Positions 10,210 to 15,897 of a DNA stretch of 64,000 nucleotides are shown here, in pieces. The stretch is from an uncultured Balneola sp. GTDB taxonomy: Bacteria; Bacteroidota; Rhodothermia; Balneolales; Balneolaceae. The position numbers and the translations under genes are program-made. The notes under the pieces are model-generated. The model had not been told where the DNA came from. It did not search any database and worked only from the letters and a program-made list of their open reading frames with translations. How positions within the stretch are numbered: position 1 is the stretch's first letter; the number at the start of each line of letters is the position of its first letter. The stretch lies in assembly GCA_913058495.1 (NCBI GenBank), contig CAJXQC010000014.1, forward strand, positions 1 to 64,000, in the 5' to 3' direction.

Positions 10210-10764
10210 ATGTATACAAACGACTTCTATATACAAGGCTTTACATCTGCCAAGAAAACTATCCATGAATTAGTAGACAGTATTGATAACCAGACTTTTA
10301 ATACTCCGCCTGCTGAATACAAATGGTGTATAGGAGAGATTATCAGTCACCTCATCAAAACAAATACGGAGTATCTGGCTGTGCTTGAGAATAAAATTCT
10401 TGGTGATACTTCGGGGCTTAAAAAAGGAAATGGTCCATATAATCACCCGTTTCACTTGCGTTGGTTTATAAAAATTGTAAGTCCTGAATTTAAAAAAGCG
10501 ATGCCTACCATTCCTCCATTTGAACCTAAAGCCATAAAAGATCTGAATAAATCTGAATTGCTTTCAGAGTTTGATGCTATTCAGGACAGATATTTAAAGC
10601 TCCTTGATAAAGCGAGTACTGAAAACCTTCATCTTGGGAAGATCAAAGTGGGCAATCCTATTTATCCTCTTATTAAAATGAGTTTGAGTGCCTGTTTTGC
10701 TGTAAATGAAGCGCATCAAAGAAGGCACTTTCAGCAAATTGAAGAAATTTTAGCTCAATCCTGA
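10210..10764 (+). CDS. DinB-superfamily protein
   Basis: The 184-residue protein has the four-helix DinB/YfiT pattern, with histidines placed to bind metal: His in IGEIISHLIKTNTEY and the pair in EAHQRRHFQQIEEIL. Many DinB-fold proteins are thiol-dependent S-transferases (for example with bacillithiol); others have no known reaction. There is no signal peptide. The last 10 bp overlap the convergent hydroxylase gene. Confidence 0.75.
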   Translation: MYTNDFYIQGFTSAKKTIHELVDSIDNQTFNTPPAEYKWCIGEIISHLIKTNTEYLAVLENKILGDTSGLKKGNGPYNHPFHLRWFIKIVSPEFKKAMPTIPPFEPKAIKDLNKSELLSEFDAIQDRYLKLLDKASTENLHLGKIKVGNPIYPLIKMSLSACFAVNEAHQRRHFQQIEEILAQS

Positions 10765-11213
10765 CGGGTTCTTTTTTTCTCCGGATAACGGTCAAAAGGA
10801 AACAGAAAAAGTCCGTATGGTTCATGTCCTTTCTTTCCTGCATCCTGATGGTGACGCTGATGAGCTCTGCGCACCAATTTCATAAACCAGTTATCACTTT
10901 TAAAAGGCATAAACCTTTTATGTGTGAATAAATCATGGATTATGAAATAAAGCAGTCCATATAAAGCAATCCCCGCACCTATTCCAAAAGCCGGTGAAGT
11001 AAACATGGTATCCGCTCCTATCATTATCAACCACATAGAAATCCCCGCAAAAACGAATGAGAAAATATCGTTCATCTCAAATAGCCTGTGATCAGGAGTA
11101 TGATGAGATTGATGAACCCTCCAAAACACGCCATGGAATAGCCACCGGTGCACACAATAGGAAACAATTTCCATTCCTGTAAAACCCAATAAAATGTAAG
11201 CTATCAATATCAT
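10755..11213 (-). CDS. crtZ: Beta-carotene hydroxylase-like membrane protein (fatty acid hydroxylase superfamily)
   Basis: The 152-residue protein has the histidine clusters of the di-iron membrane hydroxylases: H22-R-W-L-F-H27, H34-Q-S-H-H38, HDLFTH and HQRHH. It has about four hydrophobic segments. Length and His spacing match CrtZ, which hydroxylates beta-ionone rings of carotenoids at C-3. No other carotenoid gene is in the window, so the substrate is inferred from family resemblance. It overlaps the DinB-fold gene tail to tail. Confidence 0.8.
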   Translation of the reverse strand: MILIAYILLGFTGMEIVSYCVHRWLFHGVFWRVHQSHHTPDHRLFEMNDIFSFVFAGISMWLIMIGADTMFTSPAFGIGAGIALYGLLYFIIHDLFTHKRFMPFKSDNWFMKLVRRAHQRHHQDAGKKGHEPYGLFLFPFDRYPEKKRTRQD

Positions 11214-11307: not shown

Positions 11308-11332
11308 ATGTATTTATACATATAATGTACAT
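11308..11332. promoter_or_regulatory. Tandem inverted repeats upstream of the umuDC pair
   Basis: ATGTAT-TT-ATACAT occupies 11308-11321 and ATGTACAT occupies 11325-11332, about 30-50 bp before the umuD-like start. They sit where an operator would be expected. I could not find an identical motif before lexA, so assignment to LexA is a guess. Confidence 0.35.
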
Positions 11333-11359
11333 ATATTAAATATGTAAATAAATCCCTCA

Positions 11360-11803
11360 ATGAGAAGCATAGAAGCACAAAAGGATACTGATACCCGCTC
11401 AAGAACCGGTCGACTTGAATTAGCCCGAAAAATAGAAACAGGATTCCCCTCTCCTGCTTCAGATCATCTGGAAAAAGCCTTGAATCTCGAGGAGCTTGTT
11501 GTGTTCAGACCGTCCGCCACTTTTTATGTAAGAGCTCAGGGAAATGCAATGCAACGCTCGGGAATACACGACAAAGATATTCTGATCGTGGATCGGTCAA
11601 TTACTCCTCGCCATGGAAATATCATTGTTACTTCCATTGATGAAGAACCCTCCATCCGGAGATTTGCTAAACAGGGTTCCCGCATATTTTTAGTTTCTGA
11701 TGATTCCAGCTTACAACCTATTCCCATCACCAAAGAAACAGCGTGGACTATTTGGGGAGTGGTTACACATGTAATCCATCGATTCAGGTTGGAGGAAAAA
11801 TAG
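11360..11803 (+). CDS. UmuD-like protein lacking the autoprotease residues
   Basis: The 147-residue product aligns with UmuD over its length: GFPSPASDHLEKALNLEEL, HDKDILIVDRSITPRHG, IWGVVTHVIHRFR. In E. coli UmuD, cleavage occurs at Cys24-Gly25, with Ser60 and Lys97 as the catalytic dyad. Here, with a constant offset of three residues, these positions are Thr27-Gly28, Ala63 (GNAMQRSGI, codon GCA at 11546) and Arg100 (SIRRF, codon CGG at 11657). All three key residues are changed while the fold motifs are kept, so self-cleavage is not expected. It lies 7 bp upstream of umuC and clearly forms an operon with it. The protein may be a constitutive Pol V partner, or a version that cannot be activated. 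Confidence 0.88.
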   Translation: MRSIEAQKDTDTRSRTGRLELARKIETGFPSPASDHLEKALNLEELVVFRPSATFYVRAQGNAMQRSGIHDKDILIVDRSITPRHGNIIVTSIDEEPSIRRFAKQGSRIFLVSDDSSLQPIPITKETAWTIWGVVTHVIHRFRLEEK

Positions 11804-11810
11804 AATATCT

Positions 11811-13133
11811 ATGAATATCGATCCTTATAATTTACCTACTGCTTATGCGATGATAGACTGCAATAACTTTTATGCCTCCTGTGAACGCGTGTTTGATCCA
11901 ACTCTTATTGACAAACCTATCGCTATTCTCTCAAATAACGATGGTTGTGTTATTGCTCGTTCAGAAGAAGCTAAAGAGGCCGGAGTTGAAATGGGAGCTC
12001 CGGAGTTTAAATCCAGAAAGTTATTCAAAGAAAAAGGTGTTGTTGTTCGATCATCAAATTATGCTCTTTACGGCGATATGTCTGACAGAGTAATGGATGT
12101 TTTAGATCAGCTTTCACATAACATTGAAGTGTATAGTATAGATGAAGCTTTTGCCAGAGTTTCTACCAACATTTTTGATGATCTTAACGAATACGGAACT
12201 TATATAAAAGAAACCATACAACGATGGACAGGCTTACCGGTATCCGTAGGAATTGCGCCGAGTAAAACATTGGCAAAAGTCGCCAACAGCATTGCAAAAA
12301 GGAATCCATTATTTGATGGCGTACTTGCTCTTTCCAATCAAGATGAAACTGATCAACATCTAAAGGATCTGCCTGTCCAGAAAATTTGGGGCATTGGTAG
12401 TGGAATGACCGTTCGCCTACACCGACACGGCATCGAAAATGCATTTCAATTAAAGAATACCGTACAGAATCGAAAATGGGTGCGAAAAAATCTACATGTA
12501 ACCGGGTTACGAACCGTTCAGGAATTAAACGGAATACCATGTATAAAAATGGGTGAAGCTTTGGATAAGCGAAAAGGAATTTTGACATCCAGAATGTTTG
12601 GAACTCCGATCTATGAATTAGACCACCTGCAGGAAGCTATTTCTACATATGCCTCCCGTGCAGCTGAAAAACTCCGTTCCCAAAATTCGGTAGCTTCTTT
12701 ATTAAGAATTATGCTGATTGGAGATAAATATTCGAATCTGAAAGGCCAGTATAAATACTCTGCCGGCACTTCTCTGAAAGTACCCACTGCTAACACGCCT
12801 ACATTGATCAGATTAGCAAAAGGATTGGTTAATCATGTATACATGGAAAACACAAAATATAAAAAAGCTGCTGTGATGTTAACCGGAATTGTGCCAAACA
12901 GTGAAGTCCAGATGGATCTTTTTGATCCTCATTTATATACCCAACAACAATTCAGGCTCATGGAATGTTTGGATGAGATCAACTCAAAGTTTGGAAGAAA
13001 TAAGGCTGCTTTTGCTTCAACCGGGTTGCATAAAGAGAAAGAGCATCGCAACAAATGGCTGATGAATCAAAATTACCTCAGCAACAGATACACTACTCGC
13101 TGGGGTGAACTAATGGTGGTAAAAGCAAAATAA
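11811..13133 (+). CDS. umuC: UmuC-type Y-family DNA polymerase (Pol V catalytic subunit)
   Basis: The 440-residue product has the Y-family active site: Asp16 in MIDCNNFYASCERVF, and Asp111-Glu112 in YSIDEAFARV. It also has LSNNDGCVIARSEEAK, VSVGIAPSKTLAKVANSIAK, the helix-hairpin-helix IWGIGSGM, and a C-terminal little-finger region. Length matches UmuC. Translesion synthesis by UmuC normally requires UmuD' and RecA. Here the partner gene encodes a UmuD that appears unable to self-cleave. The N-terminal extension MNIDPYNLPTAYA is slightly longer than in E. coli; the ATG at 11811 is chosen because it leaves a normal 7-bp gap. Confidence 0.93.
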   Translation: MNIDPYNLPTAYAMIDCNNFYASCERVFDPTLIDKPIAILSNNDGCVIARSEEAKEAGVEMGAPEFKSRKLFKEKGVVVRSSNYALYGDMSDRVMDVLDQLSHNIEVYSIDEAFARVSTNIFDDLNEYGTYIKETIQRWTGLPVSVGIAPSKTLAKVANSIAKRNPLFDGVLALSNQDETDQHLKDLPVQKIWGIGSGMTVRLHRHGIENAFQLKNTVQNRKWVRKNLHVTGLRTVQELNGIPCIKMGEALDKRKGILTSRMFGTPIYELDHLQEAISTYASRAAEKLRSQNSVASLLRIMLIGDKYSNLKGQYKYSAGTSLKVPTANTPTLIRLAKGLVNHVYMENTKYKKAAVMLTGIVPNSEVQMDLFDPHLYTQQQFRLMECLDEINSKFGRNKAAFASTGLHKEKEHRNKWLMNQNYLSNRYTTRWGELMVVKAK

Positions 13134-15155: not shown

Positions 15156-15237
15156 GAATCACACACATTTTTTTATTGACACTGATTAAAGAACTTCGTT
15201 TATTGCACATACTTTACACATTAAGTAATATCATGCT

Positions 15238-15897
15238 ATGGATAATGCACATTTAACGAGAAAACAACAGGAATTTTTTAATTACATCGTGGAATATAAA
15301 AAAGAATATGATGTATGGCCGACCTACAGAGAAATTGCTGAACATTTTGATTACCGCTCTCCAAATAGTGTTACACAGAACATTCAGGCTTTACTTAAAA
15401 AAGGATTTCTCATTAAGCGTAATGATGAAGAGTACGACCTTCCCAAAGAGAAGAAAAAGAATTTGCTGGAAGATTATGACGATCAGGATGGAATTCCAAT
15501 TCGAGGTCTTATTGCCGCAGGTTATTTACAAGAAGCCGTTGAAGCTGATCTCGGAAAGATCACATTGTCTTCACTATTCCCGAACTTAGATCAACTATTC
15601 GCACTCCGTGTTTCAGGGTTTAGCATGAAAGATGTTGATATTTATGATGGAGATCTTGTAGTGCTTATGGATACCGATGTTAAAAATGGTGATATCGGAG
15701 CGGTTCTGTACAATGGTGAAACCAGCTTAAAGAAAATCTTTTGGGGTAGTAATGGTTTGCGTCTGGAAGCTGCCAATGAAAGCTACGATGACATTATCGT
15801 TGAGCCGGATGTATTTGAAGAAGTCCGAATCATAGGCAAATATATCGGACACATTAATCGTCAAGGTTTTCAGAGAGCCACTTCGAAAGTAGCTTAA
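15238..15897 (+). CDS. lexA: LexA SOS repressor
   Basis: The 219-residue product has the winged-helix domain (LTRKQQEFFNYIVEYKKEYDVWPTYREIAEHF, then NSVTQNIQALLKKGFL) and the S24 peptidase domain. The cleavage site Ala94-Gly95 (GLIAAGY), the nucleophile Ser129 (VSGFSM) and the general base Lys165 (SLKKI; Lys166 is adjacent) are all present, so RecA-stimulated autocleavage is expected. It is divergent from the cyclophilin lipoprotein gene across 82 bp. It lies 2.1 kb from umuC, so the block is a probable SOS locus. Confidence 0.95.
   Translation: MDNAHLTRKQQEFFNYIVEYKKEYDVWPTYREIAEHFDYRSPNSVTQNIQALLKKGFLIKRNDEEYDLPKEKKKNLLEDYDDQDGIPIRGLIAAGYLQEAVEADLGKITLSSLFPNLDQLFALRVSGFSMKDVDIYDGDLVVLMDTDVKNGDIGAVLYNGETSLKKIFWGSNGLRLEAANESYDDIIVEPDVFEEVRIIGKYIGHINRQGFQRATSKVA

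Follow-up and report, generated by a model that had tools for sequence, protein, structure and literature searches.

The window analyzed here is a stretch of 64,000 nucleotides from an uncultured Balneola sp., and it carries umuD, umuC and lexA on the forward strand. The umuD gene (11360..11803, + strand) is an ORF of 147 amino acids that encodes a UmuD with a dead catalytic dyad. After a gap of 7 bp it is followed by umuC (11811..13133, + strand), which encodes an intact Pol V catalytic subunit of 440 amino acids with IMS, IMS_C and DUF4113 domains and the motifs DCNNFYASCE and YSIDE. At a distance of 3.4 kb lies lexA (15238..15897, + strand), the product of which retains the Ala-Gly cleavage site and the Ser-Lys pair when aligned to E. 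coli LexA. The coordinates, the Y-family domains and both catalytic motifs of UmuC, together with the LexA alignment, bear out the original prediction of an intact umuC 7 bp after umuD and an intact lexA close by; a decayed umuC, which would have spoken against the significance of the umuD changes, was ruled out by the kept domains and motifs. A DinB_2-superfamily gene and a fatty-acid hydroxylase gene lie directly upstream of umuDC (10210-10764, 10755-11213), and genus g7 has a similar-looking gene ahead of its unlinked umuD (L022, L029, L033, L039).

The umuD product scored as a UmuD with NCBIfam PRK10276.1 (130.6 bits versus a cut-off of 110), and its best PDB match was E. coli UmuD (8gmt_B, E 5e-25; the 8gmt construct has Ala at position 97, and the Lys is visible in UmuD′ chains). 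In alignments to E. coli UmuD, residues C24, S60 and K97 correspond to T27, A63 and R100 at a constant offset of 3, as had been claimed for this protein. The position of the cleavage site, C24-G25 in E. coli, is occupied by T27-G28 (codons at 11438..11443, + strand), that of the catalytic Ser60 by A63 (GCA, 11546..11548, + strand) and that of the catalytic Lys97 by R100 (CGG, 11657..11659, + strand). The protein therefore has neither the catalytic Ser and Lys nor the Ala-Gly or Cys-Gly scissile bond of a self-cleaving S24 peptidase. Because Thr-Gly is also seen in UmuDs whose Ser-Lys pair is intact (two Halomonadaceae loci and five Pseudomonadota loci), the site by itself is no proof of uncleavability; the strong point is that Ser and Lys are both gone, and we infer from these residues that Balneola UmuD would not be expected to cleave itself.

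A search of the whole genome returned the gene at 11360..11803 as its single UmuD and found no second, intact copy. The identical residue triple is present in six further assemblies of the genus Balneola and in the named record Balneola sp. EhC07. Sequencing error and a lone recent mutation, either of which would have undone the prediction, were thus ruled out, since independent assemblies and named records agree on these residues. The closest matches in named genomes were Balneola sp. EhC07 (98% identity), Gracilimonas mengyeensis and several Balneolaceae MAGs.

An order-level survey of 129 genomes provided 40 readable Balneolaceae UmuDs. Lys97 was found in none of the 40, being replaced by Arg in 27 and by Cys in 13, and Ser60 was absent from 37, with Ala in 22 and Gly, Glu, Asp or Asn in the remaining non-Ser copies. 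Ser60 was kept only in L034, L035 and L055, all of genus g19; these three have Cys for Lys97 and have lost the adjoining Met61. Thr preceded Gly at the old cleavage site in 38 of the 40 proteins, the two exceptions being orphan copies without umuC (G113 and G122). The idea that Ala and Arg are fixed beside an intact umuC thus held for most of the Balneolaceae and failed in genus groups g19 and g20, where position 97 is Cys and position 60 varies. In the sister family f4, all eight UmuDs have the Ala-Gly site, Ser and Lys, as do most other Bacteroidota and Rhodothermia UmuDs that were read. A scan of named genomes found Ser and Lys kept in 75 of 75 UmuDs outside five Balneolaceae loci, and a UmuC-anchored sample of Pseudomonadota retained both in 61 of 66.

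One explanation for these replacements is relaxation or decay, in which case UmuD would be in the process of disappearing and its altered residues would mean nothing for regulation. Pseudogene copies do occur (G013, G040, G103), the two orphan copies without umuC also lack the Thr-Gly site, and pairwise dN/dS values among five Balneola species are higher for umuD (0.07-0.21) than for umuC (0.02-0.05). However, the values for umuD are far below 1, and the gene is under purifying selection. It is also fixed family-wide together with umuC and the LexA box, and the identical residues recur in another family, f24. We consider decay very improbable.

Partnership with umuC is conserved as well. The two genes occurred together in 38 of 41 Balneolaceae genomes with an intact copy of either, the UmuC catalytic motifs were retained in all 21 Balneolaceae UmuCs checked, and umuC without a detected umuD was seen in only one Balneolaceae genome, which is 86% complete. 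In genus g7 the two genes are unlinked. Both have open reading frames in G031, G046, G054 and G099, both contain stops in G040, and umuC is lost and umuD broken in G013 and G103. That two genes lying apart share their fate in this way is our strongest evidence for the view that the dead UmuD may work with UmuC, with the caveat that the coupling comes from three genomes of one genus and that the losses may not be independent.

Transcriptional control of the operon was examined by matching upstream regions to the published Balneolaeota LexA consensus, TTACACATATTTTWTACATA, for which EMSA with the LexA of Balneola vulgaris gives support (PMC7739468). Upstream of umuDC, both this comparison and a scan of the genome itself identified the predicted LexA operator TACATATAATGTACATA (11317..11333, + strand), a direct repeat with an 11-bp period, and the genome scan found a second direct repeat, CACATACTTTACACATT (15206..15222, + strand), upstream of lexA. 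The pattern YACATA-N5-YACATW had eight matches in the whole genome, compared with three for the reversed control, and four of the eight precede umuDC, lexA, a dinB and a radical-SAM (SplB-like) gene; the dinB and radical-SAM genes were identified by reading their sequences. Of 40 Balneolaceae loci, 32 have an exact match to the repeat ahead of umuD and three more a match with one mismatch, at a similar distance in most; it is absent from the four intact g7 loci and from L034. These predicted operator matches point to LexA/SOS control of umuDC, and conservation of the operator in most loci suggests that the transcriptional half of SOS control was kept where the proteolytic half was lost. The published description of the Balneolaeota LexA regulon agrees with ours in the direct-repeat operator and in the kinds of target (lexA, Pol IV, Pol V and radical SAM); it differs in dealing with transcription only, and the word umuD is absent from its text, so that the dead dyad went unremarked there (PMC7739468). 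As a separate observation on the window's own assembly, an intact Nextera adapter, CTGTCTCTTATACACATCT, lies at 24-42 of L048 (G000:C26:1-2384), near the contig start and within a truncated dinB reading frame that ends VSYTHLTLPTNRE.

Structure modelling, which had been proposed as a check, supported a UmuD′ fold for the globular core. The AlphaFold model had a mean pLDDT >90 over residues 51-140 and a TM score of 0.92 to E. coli UmuD′ (1ay9); the N-terminal arm was of low confidence, and the model is uninformative on whether the arm is docked or free. This arm, 27 residues before Gly28, differs from that of intact UmuDs of the phylum, which have P16 in 93% and L17 in 63% of cases. Balneolaceae proteins mostly have L16 and K17, with L18, and there is no P-L-F in family f24 either. 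Loss of the P16-L17-F18 anchor is what would be expected if the arm were no longer held down. The T-G-F segment and some further stretches of the arm show good conservation (Balneolaceae have E-T-G-F; f24 has A-N-A-T-G-F and keeps much of the arm), which suggests that the arm has some role rather than hanging free. We think that it stays attached, either in an open position or with a new partner.

A precedent for an arm of this kind is E. coli UmuD 3A (T14A L17A F18A), a full-length, non-cleavable protein described as a UmuD′ mimic on account of the weak binding of its arm to the globular domain (PMC5342242). Balneola UmuD resembles UmuD 3A in being full-length and presumably non-cleavable, in being altered in the same part of the arm and, as we interpret its function, in acting like UmuD′. 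The two differ in that UmuD 3A is engineered and has an intact Ser-Lys pair, whereas the Balneolaceae protein is natural and has also lost the dyad. The non-cleavable S60A variant of E. coli UmuD performs poorly in UV mutagenesis (PMC5342242), and loss of the dyad alone would therefore be predicted to leave Pol V disabled, barring a putative compensating change in the arm or in UmuC.

The E. coli results also allow a different interpretation, in which UmuD that stays uncut acts permanently as a brake or checkpoint subunit: like uncleaved UmuD2C in E. coli, it would hold UmuC at low activity, slow replication after damage or target UmuC for degradation, with lesion bypass carried out by UmuC without UmuD. 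In E. coli it is the uncleaved, full-length UmuD that is inactive, and the S60A protein is mutagenesis-deficient (PMC5342242); the conserved T-G-F and other parts of the arm are as expected of a functional docked arm. UmuC can, moreover, persist without UmuD, since umuC has no umuD within 1.5 kb at several Bacteroidota loci (L300-L303, L305 and L306, of families f27 and f44) and, in G142, no UmuD match was found genome-wide at E 0.001. However, a pure inhibitor could vanish before its target, yet the one Balneolaceae genome noted above is the only one with umuC and no umuD; a shared SOS operon would be an odd design for inhibition only; and the anchor of the closed state, P16-L17-F18, is gone in both dead lineages. 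At the level of sequence alone, a permanent inhibitor or assembly factor, as the original prediction had also allowed, looks the same as a constitutive subunit, but a pure inhibitor fits badly with the loss of umuD wherever umuC was lost. We regard a brake as unlikely.

It could also be argued that UmuD is still processed to a UmuD′-like form by some other protease, whether LexA acting in trans, Clp or Lon, or a housekeeping enzyme. The full-length arm is kept, and G-F-P-S-P directly follows the site. An active partner is able to cut E. coli UmuD S60A in trans (PMC5342242), and one f24 genome (G256) carries a dead and an intact UmuD. However, the genome studied here has no second UmuD, which disfavours the earlier suggestion of cleavage in trans by another UmuD, and other Balneolaceae likewise have one UmuD, besides weaker matches of the LexA kind. 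The docking motif of the arm is gone, and Thr is uncommon at P1, though it is seen in UmuDs with an intact dyad. Processing by another protease is in our judgment quite unlikely.

Dead UmuDs were also found outside the Balneolaceae. In the Bacteroidota family f24, nine loci and L282 have Ala60 and Arg97 with the sequence A-N-A-T-G-F (A-D-A-T-G-F in one). The f24 umuD adjoins umuC in most loci, and CTAA-N5-TTAG, the published Bacteroidetes SOS box (PMC8565304), was present upstream of umuD in all nine loci examined. One member of the family, L297, still has Ser, together with Arg97. The genome G256 encodes both a dead UmuD with Thr-Gly, Ala and Arg and an intact UmuD with Ala-Gly, Ser and Lys (L102 and L115), each with a umuC; a heterodimer with cleavage in trans is possible in this organism. 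Dead or partly dead UmuDs lie near umuC in five more families, f51 (L220), f21 (L242, L277, L304), f8 (L278), f29 (L279, L292) and f17 (L287, L296), where several short UmuDs align with little margin, so that single residues in L287, L292 and L304 are uncertain. A further locus, L095 (f15), has Ser with Arg97. D-x-N and S-x-D-E motifs were present in all partner UmuCs of these families (L095 was outside this check). Among Pseudomonadota, five UmuDs beside umuC depart from the Ser-Lys pair (L316, L336, L339, L361, L373); L316 has its start codon right before G-A-F-P-S-P-A, as if made pre-cleaved, and has Arg in place of Lys97. A viral origin was weakly rejected: two scans of viral contigs, with P0001 and with the family f24 alignment, both as short peptide patterns, found no relatives.

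The number of times that self-cleavage was lost was estimated on UmuC trees. The best tree needs nine changes to the dead state, of which well-supported branches force only two. In the first UmuC tree, the Balneolaceae stood next to f4 (support 85) and f24 stood with proteins that have intact partners (support 95). A single clade of Balneolaceae and f24 was not rejected by the AU test (p 0.217), and a single origin of all dead UmuDs was narrowly rejected (p 0.042), for a group that had been named after the tree was seen; the UmuD tree has too few columns to decide between one and several origins. Given that only two changes are forced and that these p-values lie where they do, we consider more than one loss likely and go no further. 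A broader generalization, which we consider somewhat less likely than not, is that self-cleavage is no core part of Pol V but a removable regulatory layer that was lost several times in Bacteroidota. Lys97 would have changed to Arg repeatedly, Ser60 disappearing as well and the old site often acquiring Thr, and the uncleaved arm may itself contribute to the working of a Pol V that is always ready, making these proteins a distinct class of UmuD.

Among known systems, the Balneola protein is most readily compared with E. coli UmuD and UmuD′, which it resembles in its fold, its PRK10276 score above the cut-off, its operon with umuC and its predicted SOS control, and from which it differs in lacking Ser60, Lys97, C24-G25, the P16-L17-F18 anchor and T95. 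Phage N15 gp26, of the HumD type, is likewise a natural escape from cleavage, and its residue at the Ser60 position is not Ser. It begins at the Gly of G-F-P-S-P-A and is thus made pre-cleaved and armless, whereas Balneola UmuD has a 27-residue arm; with these residues before Gly28 and an NCBIfam HumD score of 79.5 bits versus a cut-off of 120, the Balneola protein does not belong to HumD. The open-licence literature searched contained no report of dead-dyad UmuDs from nature, and so none of a full-length form that is fixed in a family alongside its umuC.

The explanation that we favor is that self-cleavage was lost in evolution and that uncleaved UmuD now serves the Pol V of these bacteria as a constitutive accessory subunit; our grounds are the residues in the case of uncleavability, and comparative genomics in the case of function in the uncut state. 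Among the possibilities first raised for this protein, action without cleavage is the best supported, by co-inheritance with umuC, purifying selection, the SOS operator and recurrence elsewhere, and the others are less so. SOS induction, through cleavage of LexA, would turn on umuDC, and the UmuD dimer would then join UmuC directly with its N-terminal arm still on, filling the accessory role of E. coli UmuD′ and activating UmuC without being cut by any route. An arm without the P16-L17-F18 anchor may no longer lock a closed, inactive state, as in UmuD 3A, and may instead be open. Control of the polymerase would be left to transcription and, presumably, to RecA.

Cleavage of UmuD is regarded in E. 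coli as a safety catch that times the action of the most mutagenic polymerase, and textbook accounts treat it as essential. In the Balneolaceae, a family of marine bacteria, Pol V probably works without this self-cleavage safety catch. A family that probably lacks cleavage but has a conserved, SOS-controlled operon makes the role of the cut testable, that is, whether it serves activity or only delay, and natural full-length mimics of UmuD′ would aid structural work on Pol V.
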